Assembly: GCF_022834715.1 (NCBI RefSeq)
Contig: NZ_BQKC01000001.1
Coordinates: 1,152,501-1,216,500 of the forward strand
From: Granulimonas faecalis
Lineage (GTDB): Bacteria > Actinomycetota > Coriobacteriia > Coriobacteriales > Atopobiaceae
Length of the DNA: 64,000 nt
Reading direction: 5' to 3'
Part shown: piece by piece, positions 12,674-18,889 of the stretch
Layout of the letters: each line of letters opens with the position of its first letter
How positions within the stretch are numbered: the first letter of the stretch is position 1
Notes under the pieces: model-generated
Told to the model about the DNA's origin: nothing
Seen by the model: the letters and a program-made list of their open reading frames with translations, nothing else
The model's database searches: none
Translations under genes and position numbers: made by a program

Positions 12674-13582
12674 TCACCGCCCGGACCGGGGATGGGCCTG
12701 GAGCGAGGCCTCCTTGAGGCGGTCCACCGACAGGTGCGTGTAGACCTGGGTGGTGGAGATGGAGGCGTGCCCGAGGAGCTCCTGGACGCTCCTGAGGTCG
12801 GCGCCGCCCGAGAGCAGCTCGGTGGCGAAGGTGTGCCGCATGGCGTGGGGCGTCACGGAGGAGGGCAGGCCGGCGAGGGCGGCGAGGCGCTCGAAGCGCA
12901 CGCGCAGGGCGTCGGCCCCCATGGGGTTGCCGCGGCTGGAGAGGAACAGGGCGTCGGAGGCGTGCGCCGCCCGCGCGGCGAGGGCGGGCCGGCCGTCGCG
13001 GAGGTAGGCCCCCACGGCGCGGCAGGCGGCCGGGTAGAGCGGGACGAGCCGCTCCTTGGAGCCCTTGCCGAAGAGCCGGACGCCCCCGGCCCCGAGGTCG
13101 ACGTCGCCCACCGAGAGGTGCGCCACCTCGGCGATGCGCGCGCCTGACGCGTACATGAGCTCGGCCTGCGCGCGGTCCCTGAGACCCTCGGGGGTCGAGG
13201 TGTCCGCGGCGGCGATGAGGGCGGATGCCTGGTCGTCGTCGAGCACCTCGGGGAGGGGCCGCCCGGTCCTGGGCGACGACGCGGCCGCGGCCACGTTGCC
13301 CTCGACGACGCCCTCCCTCCCGAGCCAGTCGTAGAAGGTCCGGAGCGCCGAGAGCCGCCTCGAGACCGTGCGCCCCGCGTAGCGGGCCCGCCGGAGCTCC
13401 CCGAGGTAGGCGCGGACGTCCGAGGGGCCGAGCGCCGCCGGGTCGGTGCCGGTGCGGTCGCACCACGAGAGAAAGCCCTCGAGGTCGCAGCGGTAGGAGC
13501 GCACCGTGTTGGGCGAGAGGTTCCTCACCGTGGCGAGGAAGTGCAGGAAGTCCCCCAGCCTCCCCTCCCAGCCCGCGCTCAC
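12674..13582 (-). CDS. xerC: Tyrosine recombinase of the XerC/XerD family
   Basis: Site-specific recombinase of 302 residues. The N-terminal SAM-like core-binding domain (about 5-95) is followed by the catalytic domain with all family residues: R149 (ASGARI), K173 (GKGSKER), H246 and R249 (HAMRH), H272 (LGHASIS) and nucleophile Y281. GTG start overlaps the trmFO stop as GTGA. Linkage to trmFO and dprA resembles the Bacillus xerC (codV) neighbourhood, so chromosome-dimer resolution is the best guess; XerC and XerD cannot be told apart from sequence alone. It is not next to any mobile element. Confidence 0.88.
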   Translation of the reverse strand: MSAGWEGRLGDFLHFLATVRNLSPNTVRSYRCDLEGFLSWCDRTGTDPAALGPSDVRAYLGELRRARYAGRTVSRRLSALRTFYDWLGREGVVEGNVAAAASSPRTGRPLPEVLDDDQASALIAAADTSTPEGLRDRAQAELMYASGARIAEVAHLSVGDVDLGAGGVRLFGKGSKERLVPLYPAACRAVGAYLRDGRPALAARAAHASDALFLSSRGNPMGADALRVRFERLAALAGLPSSVTPHAMRHTFATELLSGGADLRSVQELLGHASISTTQVYTHLSVDRLKEASLQAHPRSGR

Positions 13583-14922
13583 GGCCGCGCCGCCCCGGGG
13601 AACAGGTCGGGGCGCCCGGCGACCCAGGCGTCGAGGTCCGCCCGCGCCCGCGCGGCATAGGCGGCGTAGCGCTCGCGCTTCTTGCGCCGTGGCCCATCGA
13701 GGGGCGGCACGAGGCCGAAGTTCACGTGCATGGGCTGGTAGTCGACCGTGGCCGGGTCCGTGGCGTAGGCCACGAGCGAGCCGAGGGCGCCCGTGCGGGG
13801 CAGGTCGACGGCCGGGGCCCCCGCGAGGTCGGCGTAGGTGTTGAGGGCCGCCAGGAGCCCCGACGCCACGGCCTCCACGTAGCCCTCGGTCCCGCAGATC
13901 TGGCCGGCGAAGCGCACCCGGGTGCCGGGCACGCGGAAGGTGCGGTCCAGGGCCCGGGGCGCGTCGATGAAGGTGTTGCGGTGCATGACGCCGTAGCGGA
14001 AGAACTCGGCGTTCTCGAGCCCCGGCACCATGGAGAAGACGCGGCGCTGCTCGGGCCAGGCGAGGTTCGTCTGGAAGCCCACGAGGTTGTAGGCGCTCCG
14101 CTCGGCGTTCTCGGCGCGCAGCTGGAGGGCCGCCCAGGGGCGCGAGCCCGTGCGCGGGTCCACGAGACCCACGGGCTTCATGGCACCGTAGCGCAGCGAG
14201 TCCACGCCGGTGCGGGCCACCTCCTCGGCCGGCTGGCAGGCCCGGAAGAGGTCGCGCTGCTCGAAGTCCTTCTGCACGACGCGCCTCGCACCCACGAGGG
14301 CCTCCACGAAGGCCTCGTACTCACCGCGGTCCAGGGGGCAGTTGAGGTAGTCGCCCTCCCCCTCCGCGCCGTAGCGCGACTGCGTGAAGACCACGGACCG
14401 GTCGATGGTGGAGGCGTCGACGATGGGGGCCGCCGCGTCGAAGAACGAGAGCGAGCCCGGGGTCCCGTGGGCCTCCAGAAGGTCGGAGACCGCGGAGAAG
14501 AGCGCGTCGGAGCAGAGCGGCCCCGCGGCCACCACCACGGGGCCGTCGGGGATGAACGTCGCCTCCTCGCGGACGAGCTCGATGAGCGGCTCGGACCCCA
14601 CGGCCTCGGTGACCGAGCGGGAGAAGGCGGCCCTGTCCACGGCCAGGGCGCCGCCGGCGGGCACGGCGCACGCCTCCGCCAGGGGCAGGAGGCGCGAGCC
14701 CAGGGTGTGGAGCTCGCCCTTGAGGATGCCCGCGGCGCTCTCGGGGTTCGTCGACTTGAGGGAGTTGGAACACACGAGCTCGGCGAGGCCGTCGGTGTGG
14801 TGCGCCGGGGCGTCCCCGCCGGGGCGCTGCTCCACGAGGCGGACCGGGACGCCGCGGGCCGTCAGGGCCAGGGCGCACTCGCTGCCCGCCAGACCGCCGC
14901 CGATCACGGTGACCTTCTCCAC
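13579..14922 (-). CDS. trmFO: Methylenetetrahydrofolate-tRNA (uracil-5-)-methyltransferase TrmFO
   Basis: Flavoprotein of 447 residues that makes m5U54 in the tRNA T-loop using methylenetetrahydrofolate. The FAD-binding motif GGGLAGSE opens the protein, and CSNSLKS (about residues 50-56) and YGVMHRNTF are family segments. Start is GTG at 14920-14922, four bases after a GGAGGGGG site; earlier in-frame codons would run into the dprA coding region without a ribosome binding site. Confidence 0.94.
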   Translation of the reverse strand: MEKVTVIGGGLAGSECALALTARGVPVRLVEQRPGGDAPAHHTDGLAELVCSNSLKSTNPESAAGILKGELHTLGSRLLPLAEACAVPAGGALAVDRAAFSRSVTEAVGSEPLIELVREEATFIPDGPVVVAAGPLCSDALFSAVSDLLEAHGTPGSLSFFDAAAPIVDASTIDRSVVFTQSRYGAEGEGDYLNCPLDRGEYEAFVEALVGARRVVQKDFEQRDLFRACQPAEEVARTGVDSLRYGAMKPVGLVDPRTGSRPWAALQLRAENAERSAYNLVGFQTNLAWPEQRRVFSMVPGLENAEFFRYGVMHRNTFIDAPRALDRTFRVPGTRVRFAGQICGTEGYVEAVASGLLAALNTYADLAGAPAVDLPRTGALGSLVAYATDPATVDYQPMHVNFGLVPPLDGPRRKKRERYAAYAARARADLDAWVAGRPDLFPGAARP

Positions 14923-14989
14923 GTGTCCCCCTCCCCGGGCGCTCCGCCCCCCCGTTCCGCCGTCGTCCAAGCATACCCCGTACCGCCCC

Positions 14990-15877
14990 TCAGACCTCGT
15001 CGAGAAGCGCCGCCTCCGTGGGGCTGTAGCGGCCGTCGGGCAGCCTGCGGACGAGTCCCTCCGCCTCGTAGTCGGCGAGGAGGCGCATGACCTCGAGCAC
15101 ACCCTTCCCGAGGGCCGCCGCCAGGTCGTCCGGCCGCATGGCCTGGCCCACGAGGGCCGAGTAGAGCCTGCCCCGGTCCTTGGCCGTGCGCATGCGAGGG
15201 CTCCTCAGGACCCCGTAGTCCATGGAGATGGACATCTCCAGCGACTCCTCGTCCACGATCATGGTGGCCCCCTGGGAGATGAGCAGGTTGGTGCCCCTCG
15301 ACGACGGCGAGAACATGGATCCCGGCGCGGCGTAGACCGTGCGCCCGAGCTCCACGGCGGCGTCGGCCGTGGAGAAGGTGCCGGAGGGCAGCCCGGCCTC
15401 GGTCACCACGAGCACGGGCGAGAGGGCGGCGATGAGGCGGTTCCTCCTCGGAAAGGTCCACCGGCTCGGCCCGGTCCCCCAGGGGGCGAGGGCGACGACC
15501 GCCCCTCCCTGGGCGGTCGCCCCCTCGAAGACGTCGCGGCTGCTCGCAGGGTACACGAGGTCGGCCCCGGTGCCGGCGCACACCACGGTGCGGCCGCCCG
15601 CCGCGAGCGCCGCCCGCGCCGCGGCGGCGTCCACCCCCATGGCCCCGCCGGACACCACCGTGAGCCCGGCCTCGGCGGCCACGCGGCCCGCCAGCGAGGC
15701 CACGGCCAGGCCGTAGGGCGTCCCGCGTCGGGCCCCCACCACCGATATGCAGGGCGTCGAGAGCACGGAGGGGTCGCCGCGGCCGTAGATGCGGTCGATG
15801 CCGGACCCCTCCCCCACCAGGGGCGGCCACAGATCGTCGCCGGGAACGAGCTCGAACCCCGCCGTCATGTCGGCCAT
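14990..15877 (-). CDS. dprA: DNA processing protein DprA (Smf)
   Basis: Binds incoming single-stranded DNA in natural transformation and loads RecA. The 295-residue protein has the DprA Rossmann-like core: VGARRGTPYG, VSGGAMGVDAAAARAAL, and PRRNRLIAALS with the TFSTADAAVELGR segment. The last 65 residues form a small winged-helix domain, as in many DprA proteins. ATG at 15875 is one base after the comM stop. Together with comM and yraN it suggests, but does not prove, DNA uptake capacity; no comEA/comEC is in the window. Confidence 0.94.
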   Translation of the reverse strand: MADMTAGFELVPGDDLWPPLVGEGSGIDRIYGRGDPSVLSTPCISVVGARRGTPYGLAVASLAGRVAAEAGLTVVSGGAMGVDAAAARAALAAGGRTVVCAGTGADLVYPASSRDVFEGATAQGGAVVALAPWGTGPSRWTFPRRNRLIAALSPVLVVTEAGLPSGTFSTADAAVELGRTVYAAPGSMFSPSSRGTNLLISQGATMIVDEESLEMSISMDYGVLRSPRMRTAKDRGRLYSALVGQAMRPDDLAAALGKGVLEVMRLLADYEAEGLVRRLPDGRYSPTEAALLDEV

Positions 15878-15878
15878 G

Positions 15879-17384
15879 TCAGGCCACCTCCCTCTGACGC
15901 CAGAGCGAGGCCTCGGCGACGTGCCGCGCCGTGACCGCCCGGCTCTCCTCGATGTCGGCCACGGTGCGCGCCACCCGTGCGATCCGCGTGACGGCGCGGC
16001 CGCCGAGCGACGCGGTGCGGGCGAGGAGGTCGAGGCGCCCGGACGCCGCCTCGTCGAGCCCGAGGGACGACACGGGGCCGTCGCCCACGCCCTGGGAGCG
16101 GCGCCAGGAGGCGAACTCCCGGGCCGCCAGCACCTGGTCGCGCATCTCGGCCGAGCCCATGCCCTCCTCGCCGCGGATGATGGAGCCCGGCCTCGGCCTC
16201 GCGACGTCGCACACGATGTCGATGCGGTCCATGAGGGGGCCGCCCACCCGGGCCTGGTAGCGCTGCACCTGGGCCGCCGAGCACGTGCACTCCCGGCCGC
16301 GGTCCCCCAGGTGCCCGCAGGGGCACGGGTTGGCCGCGGCCACGAGCTGGAAGTCGGCCGGGAACCGGTAGGTGCCGTCGGCCCGCACGAGCACCACGCG
16401 CTTGTCCTCCAGCGGCTGCCGCAGGGTCTGGAGCACGTTGCCGGCGAACTCCGGGAGCTCGTCGAGGAAGAGCACCCCGCAGTGGGCGAGCGACACCTCG
16501 CCTGGCCCCACCGGGCGGCCCCCGCCCACGAGCCCGGCGCACGACACCGTGTGGTGCGGCGCGCGGAACGGCCGCTCGCCGGCGAGGATGCCGGAGGCGT
16601 CGAGGCCCGCCGCCGAGTGGATCACGGCCGCCTCGATGAGCTCCTCCCCCTCCAGGGGCGGCAGGACGGTGGCCATGCGCCGGGCGACCATGGTCTTGCC
16701 GGTCCCCGGCGGCCCCACCATAAGCATGCCGTGGCCGCCGGCCGCCGCCACGACGCAGGCCCTCTTCACCGCCTCCTGGTCCACCACGTCGGAGAAGTCG
16801 ACGGCCTCCTGGGGCCCCGGGCGCACGGCGTCGGGTACCGGGGCCCCGGCCGCCGCCTCGGCGAGGGCGCCCATGCCCTGCTTGAGCCGGGAGAGGCACG
16901 GGACGGGCACCGGCGGGGCGCCGATGGGCGCCCGGGCCGCCTCCCCCGGGGCCCCGGCGAGGACGAGACCCTGCTCGGCGGCGAGCTTCTGGAACGCGAT
17001 GGCCCCCGGCACCGGGGAGACCTCCCCGGTGAGCCCGAGCTCCCCCACGAGGAGGTAACCGTCGAGCCCCTCCCTCGGCACCTGGGAGGCCGCGGCCAGG
17101 ATGGCGGCCGCTATGGGCAGGTCGAGCCCGGTCCCGGCCTTGCGGACGTCCGCCGGGGCGAGGTTCACCGTCACGCTCATGCGCGGGAGCGAGAACCCGC
17201 TCGCCCGGAAGGCGCACCGCACGCGGCTCCGGGCCTCGAGCACCGCCTTGTCGGCCATGCCGATGATGTTGATGCCGGGAATGCCGCCCGCGAGGTCCAC
17301 CTCCACGTCCACGGGCACGGCCTCGGCGCCGCGGAGCACCGCCGTGTGGACCGACGCCCCGTGGCGGCTCACTGGCCGTCCCAT
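15879..17384 (-). CDS. comM: ComM/YifB family Mg-chelatase-like AAA+ ATPase
   Basis: AAA+ helicase family protein that in Vibrio promotes branch migration during transformation. It has 501 residues: an N-terminal Lon-protease-like domain (about 10-170), Walker A GPPGTGKT at 224-231, a FLDELPEF Walker B region, and the zinc-like NPCPCGHLGDRGRECTC segment. The start chosen is ATG at 17384, overlapping yraN by 16 bases; a GTG at 17372 overlapping the yraN stop as GTGA is an equally good choice. Confidence 0.92.
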   Translation of the reverse strand: MGRPVSRHGASVHTAVLRGAEAVPVDVEVDLAGGIPGINIIGMADKAVLEARSRVRCAFRASGFSLPRMSVTVNLAPADVRKAGTGLDLPIAAAILAAASQVPREGLDGYLLVGELGLTGEVSPVPGAIAFQKLAAEQGLVLAGAPGEAARAPIGAPPVPVPCLSRLKQGMGALAEAAAGAPVPDAVRPGPQEAVDFSDVVDQEAVKRACVVAAAGGHGMLMVGPPGTGKTMVARRMATVLPPLEGEELIEAAVIHSAAGLDASGILAGERPFRAPHHTVSCAGLVGGGRPVGPGEVSLAHCGVLFLDELPEFAGNVLQTLRQPLEDKRVVLVRADGTYRFPADFQLVAAANPCPCGHLGDRGRECTCSAAQVQRYQARVGGPLMDRIDIVCDVARPRPGSIIRGEEGMGSAEMRDQVLAAREFASWRRSQGVGDGPVSSLGLDEAASGRLDLLARTASLGGRAVTRIARVARTVADIEESRAVTARHVAEASLWRQREVA

Positions 17385-17887
17385 GCGAAGGCCCCCACCA
17401 GGTGGCGGAGGCGGGCCATCCGCTCCTGGACGATGTTGATGGCGATCACGTCGAAGCGCACGGAGTCCACCTCCGGGTGCTCCGAGAGGTAGTAGAGGGC
17501 TATCCTCCGGTACCTCGCGCGCTTGCGCCGGTCGACGGCGAGCTCGGGCATGGGCTCCTCGGGGGCGTCGATGGCCAGGCGGCACTTCACCTCCACGAGC
17601 ACCACGCACCCGCGCTCCTCGGCAGCCACGATGTCCGCCTCGCCGCCCGGGCACACCCAGTTGAGGTCGCGGATCTCGAGCCCGCGACGCACGAGGTAGA
17701 CCTGGGCGAGGTGCTCGCCCTCGGCCCCGAGCTCGCGCTCCGTGTACTCCCGCACGGACTTCTGGGGGCGCGGGTAGGCGTCCCAGGGCGGCACCGACGT
17801 GTCGGCGGCCACGCCCTGGTCCACGACCACCGCCTCGTCAGCCCCCGACGCCCCCGTGACCTCCATGACCCCCCTGACGTCCTCCAT
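17369..17887 (-). CDS. yraN: YraN family (UPF0102) endonuclease-like protein
   Basis: Small nuclease-fold protein of 172 residues with the family core: GEHLAQVYLVRRG, LNWVCPGGEADIVA, then LVEVKCR, the pattern of restriction-endonuclease-like active sites (GEADI...EVK). Its exact role is unknown in bacteria; it is often next to rnhB and comM. A 45-residue N-terminal extension precedes the core. ATG at 17885-17887 has AGGAGG five bases upstream. The 222 bases upstream hold phased repeats, see the separate entry. Confidence 0.9.
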   Translation of the reverse strand: MEDVRGVMEVTGASGADEAVVVDQGVAADTSVPPWDAYPRPQKSVREYTERELGAEGEHLAQVYLVRRGLEIRDLNWVCPGGEADIVAAEERGCVVLVEVKCRLAIDAPEEPMPELAVDRRKRARYRRIALYYLSEHPEVDSVRFDVIAINIVQERMARLRHLVGAFAWDGQ

Positions 17888-17940
17888 GGCTTCCTCCTCG
17901 TGTCTGGGACCCGCTGGACGGGCACCATGGTGGAAGGCGG

Positions 17941-17995
17941 CCCCGACCGGTTCCCGACCGGTACCCGACGGCTGCCCGACACGGCCCCGACCGCC
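17941..17995. repeat. Five tandem 11-bp repeats, consensus nCCCGACCGGt
   Basis: Five adjacent units of exactly 11 bases begin at 17941, 17952, 17963, 17974 and 17985. Every unit shares CCCGAC at the same offset, and the first two are identical except for one base. They lie 53 bases upstream of the yraN start codon in the yraN-rnhB gap. Spacing of about one helical turn suggests a set of binding sites on one face of the DNA, by inference. Confidence 0.75.
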
Positions 17996-18004
17996 GACGG
18001 TCGG
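17987..18004. repeat. Short inverted repeat beside the 11-bp array
   Basis: CCGACCG and CGGTCGG form a 7-bp stem around a 4-base loop at the end of the repeat array. It lacks a T-run, so I read it as part of the regulatory region rather than a terminator. Confidence 0.5.
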
Positions 18005-18021
18005 AAACCGGGGGACACAGG

Positions 18022-18049
18022 AAAGGCCCCCGGCAACGGCGGGGGCCTT
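18022..18049 (-). terminator. Terminator after rnhB
   Basis: A 10-bp stem (18023-18032 with 18040-18049) with a 7-base loop is followed on the minus strand by TT and then T CC; the stem itself ends in AA/TT pairs. It lies 60 bases beyond the rnhB stop. Confidence 0.7.
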
Positions 18050-18109
18050 CATCAAGGTTCGGTTCTCCTCCGGAGGATGGGGCGACGGGCGCCCAGGGGC
18101 CCTCGCCGC

Positions 18110-18865
18110 TCAGTCCACAAAACGGCCACAGAACGAGGCCCGGTGCTCGGGGGTCAGCCCCAGGGAGCGGATGGCGGCGATGTGGGACGCCGAGCCGTAC
18201 CCCTTGTTGGACGCGAACCCGTACCCAGGGTACGCGGCGTCGAGCTCCACCATCCGCCGGTCGCGGGCCACCTTGGCCACGATGGAGGCGCAGGCGATGG
18301 ACGCGACCCTGCCGTCACCGCCCACGAGGCAGCGCTCCCGGGGGTGCGCGTGGACGGGGTTGCCGTCGATGAGCACGGCGTCGGGCTCCACGCCGCAGGC
18401 GGAGACCGCCTCCCCCATGGCGCGGCGAAGGCAGGCGGACATGCCGTGGGCGTCGATATCCGCGGGCGGCACCCAGACGAGGGACACGGCCGTCGCGACC
18501 TCACGGATGCGGGCGTCGAGCCGCTCCCTCGCGGCCGGCGACAGCCGCTTGGAGTCGTCGATGCCCCACACTATGGGCTCCGGCGGGAGCACCACGGCCC
18601 CCACGACGAGGGGGCCGGCCAGGGGCCCGCGCCCCACCTCGTCCACCCCCACGGCCAGGCCGCCCTCGGCGAGCCCGTCCATGGTGCGGTAGAGCCCCGC
18701 CACACGCTCGCGGTCGGCCCGCTCCCGCTCGAGGCGGCGGCGGGCCCGGGCGACGGCGGAGGCCACCGTGGCGCGGGGGTCGTCGGAGCTGGCCTCGATG
18801 AGCGCCTCGAGCCCCTCCAGGGGGGCCTCCCTGAGCGCCCGGGCGACGGCGGAGGCGGGTTCCAT
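18110..18865 (-). CDS. rnhB: Ribonuclease HII
   Basis: Removes RNA from RNA-DNA hybrids and misincorporated ribonucleotides. The catalytic acidic residues are in GVDEVGRGPLAGPL (D75, E76), with DSKRLS, SIACASIVAKVARDR and a YGSASHIAAI segment downstream. It has 251 residues, with a 70-residue N-terminal helical extension like that of Bacillus RNase HII. ATG at 18865 follows GAAGGGAG; a farther upstream start at 18889 has no site. Confidence 0.94.
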   Translation of the reverse strand: MEPASAVARALREAPLEGLEALIEASSDDPRATVASAVARARRRLERERADRERVAGLYRTMDGLAEGGLAVGVDEVGRGPLAGPLVVGAVVLPPEPIVWGIDDSKRLSPAARERLDARIREVATAVSLVWVPPADIDAHGMSACLRRAMGEAVSACGVEPDAVLIDGNPVHAHPRERCLVGGDGRVASIACASIVAKVARDRRMVELDAAYPGYGFASNKGYGSASHIAAIRSLGLTPEHRASFCGRFVD

Positions 18866-18889
18866 GGCACGCTCCCTTCTGGTGCGCAC

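Follow-up and report, generated by a model that had tools for sequence, protein, structure and literature searches.

A phased array of 11-bp direct repeats upstream of yraN-comM-dprA, a candidate competence operator in Coriobacteriales

The rnhB-yraN intergenic region

The window, the whole 64,000-nt stretch of Granulimonas faecalis DNA that was analyzed (genome G000 below), carries a yraN-comM-dprA operon preceded by rnhB, all on the minus strand (Table 1). A 222-bp gap (17888-18109) separates the rnhB stop at 18110 from the yraN ATG at 17887. Within this gap, GTCGGG (CCCGAC on the plus strand) is repeated five times at exact 11-bp steps between 17942 and 17991, with CCCGAC starting at 17942, 17953, 17964, 17975 and 17986 and no further copy anywhere in 17888-18109. 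Read on the minus strand, like the genes, the unit is GTCGGGNNNNN. The five 11-base units with CCCGAC at a constant offset that had been noted in a preliminary description are exact in the sequence. The 7-bp inverted repeat it had placed at the end of the array was also recognized by eye, as arms CCGACCG (17987-17993) and CGGTCGG (17998-18004), the outer arm repeating the unit core in inverted orientation.

Proceeding along the minus strand, the last unit is followed by the hexamer CACCAT, a Shine-Dalgarno-like stretch and the yraN ATG. No -35 element was found for CACCAT, and the promoter scan yielded no sigma-70 pair. The hairpin following rnhB, which a consensus terminator scan did not report, is terminator-like and may separate rnhB from the array promoter. 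Two co-directional genes downstream from dprA, which we take from their sequence to be trmFO-like and xerC-like, are inferred by position only to be members of the operon.

To gauge how unusual the array is, the gap was compared with first-order Markov copies of itself. Five identical 6-mers at exact 11-bp spacing occurred in none of 200,000 copies, the largest run at this spacing being four, seen once; when any spacing from 6 to 30 was allowed, four identical 6-mers were reached in 1 of 20,000 copies. Searching the window for three GTCRGR motifs at a pitch of 11, with up to 2 mismatches, returned three matches, all in the yraN array and all without mismatch, against a mean of 0.77 in shuffles of the window. 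Tandem Repeats Finder scored the array higher at period 22 (68) than at period 11 (53).

Table 1. Coordinates of the yraN region in the window and of array-associated genes in other loci.
Feature	Position	Strand	Remarks
rnhB, upstream gene	18110..18889	-	anchor for finding the gap in relatives
Terminator-like hairpin 3' of rnhB	18022..18050	-	RNA fold -21.4 kcal/mol, z -2.31
7-bp inverted repeat CCGACCG ccga CGGTCGG	17987..18004	.	upstream end of array; by eye
Operator array (putative)	17937..17991	-	five head-to-tail 11-bp units, 5' GTCGGGGCCGT GTCGGGCAGCC GTCGGGTACCG GTCGGGAACCG GTCGGGGCCGC 3'
-10-like hexamer CACCAT	17927..17932	-	15 nt after start of last array unit
Shine-Dalgarno-like GAGGAGGAAG of yraN	17890..17899	-	by eye
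yraN (UPF0102), first operon gene	17369..17887	-	Pfam UPF0102 1.5e-19
comM	15879..17387	-	Pfam Mg_chelatase 5.2e-85 and ChlI
dprA	14990..15877	-	Pfam DNA_processg_A 8.8e-52 and DprA_WH
ORF containing presumed trmFO-like gene	13579..15102	-	true start internal to ORF; next co-directional
Presumed xerC-like tyrosine recombinase	12674..13582	-	next co-directional
P0001 family copies, G000	L007:1552-2580, L027:1594-2616, L253:1728-2729, L026:375-1436 (-), L252		
Large secreted/surface proteins	G014 C1:1149820 (L242), G011 C52:34779 (L260), G039 C169:7517 (L261), G016 C1:1942973 (L395)		

Arrays elsewhere in the genome and the genes behind them

A BLAST search of the gap against its own genome identified a second place, upstream of rpsF-ssb-rpsR (84% identity, E 3.4e-5). 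Pattern searches located the unit at pitch 11 in several additional positions: between cinA and recA, before comEA-comEC, before cpaB, the first gene of a Tad/Flp pilus operon (cpaB, TadZ-like, CpaF ATPase), and before five genes of one putatively Vsr-like family (P0001). Thus, a genome-wide search, which the preliminary description had proposed, did reveal other arrays of the unit, and the notion that the feature is confined to the window was rejected, similar arrays being found in relatives as well (see below). One element precedes uptake, single-stranded DNA-handling and recombination genes in this genome, which is the pattern expected of a competence regulon.

Matches to three GTCRGR motifs, with up to 2 mismatches, were counted against the same pattern written backward. 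There were 25 matches versus 1 in G000, and in relatives 14 versus 2 (G014), 16 versus 4 (G011), 45 versus 3 (G039) and 7 versus 5 (G022); in five other genomes, three GNAAGM motifs gave 58 versus 7, summed. By our grouping, the 25 matches in G000 represent 16 places. Ten of these precede yraN, rpsF-ssb, recA, comEA-comEC, cpaB and the five family genes, all in the same orientation relative to the gene. Six places remain. At 1731550 there is no clear gene, a lipoprotein-like ORF stands behind C2:72095, three appear to lie in coding DNA (1741975, 1775726 and C2:144898), and the sixth is C2:44173.

In four of the five genomes searched with GTCRGR (G000, G014, G011 and G039, the fifth being G022), an array precedes a cpaB-type gene. 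In G039, an array also precedes comFC, for which the Pfam match of the piece is to a zinc-ribbon model only. Array-preceded genes in other genomes include AbiEi-like genes, surface proteins and members of the P0001 family, names that we presume from the sequence; several array sites precede genes without a known role in competence. AbiEi-like genes stand directly behind arrays in G005 (C4:99649, L365), G024 (C1:1434113, L361) and G033 (C42:45384, L396). Large secreted or surface proteins do so in four genomes (Table 1), some of them thioester-domain-like by eye.

The P0001 proteins vary fast and are present in several copies per genome, in G000 (where the L252 copy looks truncated) and also in G014, G022, G005, G016 and G003. 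Pfam and padloc returned nothing firm on them. Their alignment has 16 invariant columns, including E203, D249, E260 and H267, as well as Y261 and D276. A model of the C-terminal half (pLDDT 90) matched 3r3p (Z 8.5, rmsd 2.9, 96 aligned), 3hrl (Z 7.6) and 1vsr (Z 6.3); with Foldseek, E was only 0.36 and no match reached 0.001. A partial match of the N-terminal part to AbiEi (6y8q, Z 4.9) is not leaned upon. The invariant residues, acidic ones among them, and a possible fold of the Vsr/I-Bth0305I type in the C-terminal half suggest that the family may be a nuclease. In the family promoters L007, L252 and L243, the ATG follows the proposed -10 by only about 6-7 nt, so that the mRNA would be leaderless.

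Conservation of the pitch and of the -10 distance

By RecA similarity, G000 groups with Coriobacteriales (Parafannyhessea umbonata 86%, Collinsella sp. 83%) and probably belongs to Atopobiaceae. Four orthologous promoters (yraN, recA, rpsF and comEA) were collected from 29 relatives each, making 30 loci per search with the genome of the window; 7 to 9 further relatives per search lie outside the set. Mean self-identity at a lag of 11 exceeded expectation only in promoter windows, with z values of 4.4 and 4.8 for the yraN gap, 6.9 and 4.8 for recA, 3.4 for rpsF and 3.3 and 2.7 for comEA. Lags 10 and 13 showed no rise in these windows, and lag 12 rose only as it does in coding DNA. Outside the class, 66 loci from other bacteria had no excess at lag 11 upstream of recA (0.4%, z 1.2); an excess was present in 11 other Coriobacteriia from a named collection (5.8%, z 2.6), some of them possibly of the same species as genomes of our set.

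Contig-cut positions were corrected in the lag profiles; some rows have no distant windows at contig ends (n 27-29). The outgroup recA set was restricted to loci of at least 2900 bases, which removed 3 of 69. For single arrays, 120 regions of at least 120 bases were scored for a 4-unit array at z of at least 3. For coherence, an 11-column matrix was built from each array reaching this threshold (44 of the 120, own genome included) and scanned over the three remaining promoters, both in the same genome and in every other one, with shuffles of the targets as background.

Detection of single arrays in the relatives was modest. A 4-unit array reached the threshold in 11 of 29 relatives for yraN, in 12 for recA, 7 for rpsF and 10 for comEA, leaving 18 of the 29 rnhB-yraN gaps below it. 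The preliminary description had held a binding-site array to be unlikely if relatives kept no repeats in this gap or kept them at random spacing. As regards spacing the array withstands this check, lag 11 being enriched in the gap of the 29 relatives; CCCGAC itself is not kept, the unit being GTCAGA in G014, GCAAGC in G003 and G024, GGAAGA in G005, TGCGAC in G008 and TTAGAT-like in G010. Separately, the rnhB-yraN gap of G039 (L083) contains about 20 phased units, many of them alternating between GTCGGG and GTCAGG, which amounts to a 22-bp super-period.

Within a genome, the units resemble each other. Matrices scored a mean z of 5.19 over 109 same-genome pairs versus 0.95 over 3161 other-genome pairs (Mann-Whitney p 2.6e-40, a value that is only indicative since the pairs are not independent). 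The own genome ranked first of 30 in 58 of the 109 pairs and among the top three in 81; omitting the genome of the window, it ranked first in 47 of 97 and among the top three in 69. Coherence fails in G002, G029, G030 and G032 and is weak in G012 and G015. Judging from these scans, each genome has its own unit sequence, common to its own com promoters, several genomes failing to conform.

The position of the array relative to the promoter was analyzed in 48 arrays with z of at least 2.5, whose register was set by a G-N-N-R-G rule blind to the -10. Behind the last unit, YANNNT hexamers peaked at offset 15, with 16 occurrences; offset 16 had 3, and every other offset from 6 to 29 had 3 or fewer. 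TANNNT occurred 9 times at 15 and 3 times at 16. The remaining 32 of the 48 arrays lack a YANNNT at exactly +15. The -10-like hexamers in G000 are TACGCT for rpsF, TAGGCT for comEA and CACCAT for yraN, and TACCGT, TACGCT and CACACT for family genes. The recA array is ambiguous in this respect (TTCCAT at +15 or CATGGT at +18) and cpaB has no clear -10.

According to PMC10936776, the direct repeats of SARP promoters (AfsR and relatives, Streptomyces) have a spacing of 11 or 22 bp; the -10 lies 8 bp away from the 3' repeat, and the -35 is weak. The offset of 15 matches these promoters, because a 7-base core plus 8 makes 15, and this spacing, 11-bp direct repeats with the exact -10 offset, is that of the 16 arrays above. 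Judged by sequence, the arrangement of array and -10 is the geometry of a class-II activator, as reported for SARPs. It differs from SARP promoters in the number of units, 4-5 here and about 20 in G039, and in the genes served, which are competence rather than antibiotic genes.

A proposed competence operator and its candidate regulators

The array, its recurrence, the co-orientation, the 11-bp pitch, the unit shared within a genome and the favoured -10 spacing are all present in the sequence. We consider it highly probable that the array comprises the cooperative binding sites of a direct-repeat-binding activator of a natural-competence regulon; from the sequence, we infer protein binding, activation and a competence response. 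The preliminary description had conceived of a phased operator array controlling DNA uptake. Such an operator is much likelier than could be known then, because the unit recurs before ssb, recA, comEA-comEC and the Tad operon, and the lag-11 signal in relatives adds to this support. Each 11-bp unit would take one activator protomer, and several of these would line up head to tail along a single face of the DNA. With about 8-9 bp separating the end of the gene-proximal unit from a weak -10 hexamer, the bound protein would take the place of the -35 element and recruit RNA polymerase (class II activation). The activator would switch on DNA capture (Tad/Flp pilus, and comFC in one genome) and uptake (comEA-comEC), and with them the protection and recombination genes ssb, recA, dprA, comM and yraN. 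It is the combination of pilus, uptake and recombination genes that points to competence.

An OmpR-type winged helix (SARP or PhoB-like) would fit the geometry best, and no such protein could be tied to the array. The Pho box of E. coli (PhoB/OmpR) consists of tandem repeats at pitch 11 that replace the -35, and its CTGTCAT core resembles the GTCAGA and GTCGGG units. The present case differs in that the genes are for competence, not phosphate, and in that the unit drifts between genera whereas the helices of the universal OmpR-family proteins do not. The regulator was not found among the PF00486 proteins analyzed (12 in G000, 98 in 11 genomes). None of the 12 in G000 is SARP-like: a SARP has a BTAD following its OmpR-type DNA-binding domain, whereas in all 12 the domain is preceded by a stretch as long as a receiver and followed by no more than 9 residues. 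Upon grouping the 98, the L180 and L182 groups were present in 11 of 11 genomes and an L186-type group, which also holds a dissimilar G014 protein, in 10. Recognition helices in the universal groups are near-invariant across the 11 genomes although the units differ, and no ortholog whose helix changes with the unit was found among the 98 proteins. Scanning the response-regulator promoters for arrays of their own genome's unit gave three weak matches at 2 mismatches, none convincing. In the collected loci outside the response-regulator sets, the only other OmpR-type domains were the window's own and one outgroup match. These data suggest that the regulator either belongs to another family or is replaced between genera. 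In a separate observation, the promoter of one OmpR-family gene (L183, G000 C1:274293) has 11-bp spaced TTACG repeats of its own, a different unit, as if self-regulated.

Among OmpR-family proteins, a highly conserved orphan with a GlnR-like N-terminus (L191, G000 C1:1626616-1627233) is flanked by a glnQ-like ABC gene and an HtrA-like gene. That this near-universal protein (L182/L191) is the regulator, binding in PhoB-like fashion, strikes us as improbable. It shares 60-86% identity among 21 same-family relatives, is missing from G007 and G030, which also have no clear arrays, and carries a recognition helix, TRTVDVHIRRVRSK, that resembles PhoB's. However, this helix is invariant across genomes with strongly differing units (GTCGGG, GCAAGC, GGAAGA, TGCGAC), G036 lacks an ortholog despite its strong comEA array (z 9.6), and the protein's own promoter has no clear array. 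We attach the same low probability to a BldC/Xis-like regulator, a small wHTH protein polymerizing head to tail on direct repeats. According to PMC5859096, BldC binds in this way to phased repeats, variable in number, with one helical turn from each to the next, a mode that would accommodate arrays of 4 to about 20 units (G039); its sites, however, are 9-bp AT-rich units of different sequence (AATTNNNNC), at development genes.

A somewhat smaller chance still is given to a DNA-damage regulon, in which a second regulator, independent of LexA, would act through the array in response to stress, with recA, ssb, dprA and yraN as repair genes. Both recA and ssb are core repair genes. Downstream of the array, the recA region (L006) has a second promoter with TTGACA and what we take by eye to be a LexA-like box, GAACAGATGTTC; recA therefore seems to have both inputs, and the separate box speaks for this reading. 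Against it, arrays also precede uptake genes, namely those of the Tad pilus, comEA-comEC and comFC; recA and ssb were the sole repair genes behind the arrays examined; and the window's polymerase-IV-like gene has no array-like match upstream. SOS control was considered and rejected. The slipped repeat without function that the preliminary description had offered as the alternative can be set aside as extremely improbable: slippage or copying could, in principle, give a genome several arrays of like sequence, but slippage would not be expected to yield a single orientation and a favoured -10 distance, nor to place one pitch ahead of the same genes across many genera whose units differ.

Returning to a competence activator, we tentatively suggest, as a possibility short of even odds, that competence in Coriobacteriales is under a master activator that is none of the conserved OmpR-family response regulators and polymerizes head to tail on -10-adjacent 11-bp repeats. 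Its recognition sequence would change between genera together with the whole regulon, while pitch and -10 distance stay fixed. The regulon would comprise the Tad pilus, comEA-EC, comFC, ssb, recA, the dprA operon and the multiplying AbiEi-like/Vsr-like family.

In the competence regulons of Firmicutes (ComK, ComX/SigX, ComE), uptake and pilus genes, ssb, recA and dprA all answer to a single regulator, as proposed here; boxes, promoter class and pilus type differ, the pilus being of the Tad/Flp type in the present case. In Micrococcus luteus, also a member of the Actinomycetota, tad genes are required for transformation (PMC4322843) and a comEA/EC operon serves competence, control of which is described as little known (PMC4322843, PMC8467076); the portions of these reports at hand mention no 11-bp array. 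We found no competence promoter element for Coriobacteriia in the literature on competence genes or promoters of Coriobacteriia and Actinobacteria. The array is a likely switch for DNA uptake in a group where such a switch has not been described. It provides a concrete bait for the regulator, allows the regulon to be predicted in other genomes of the order and leads to the testable claim that bacteria of this order use a Tad pilus for DNA uptake. The array would also be a clear example from nature of an operator whose sequence drifts in concert throughout an entire regulon.
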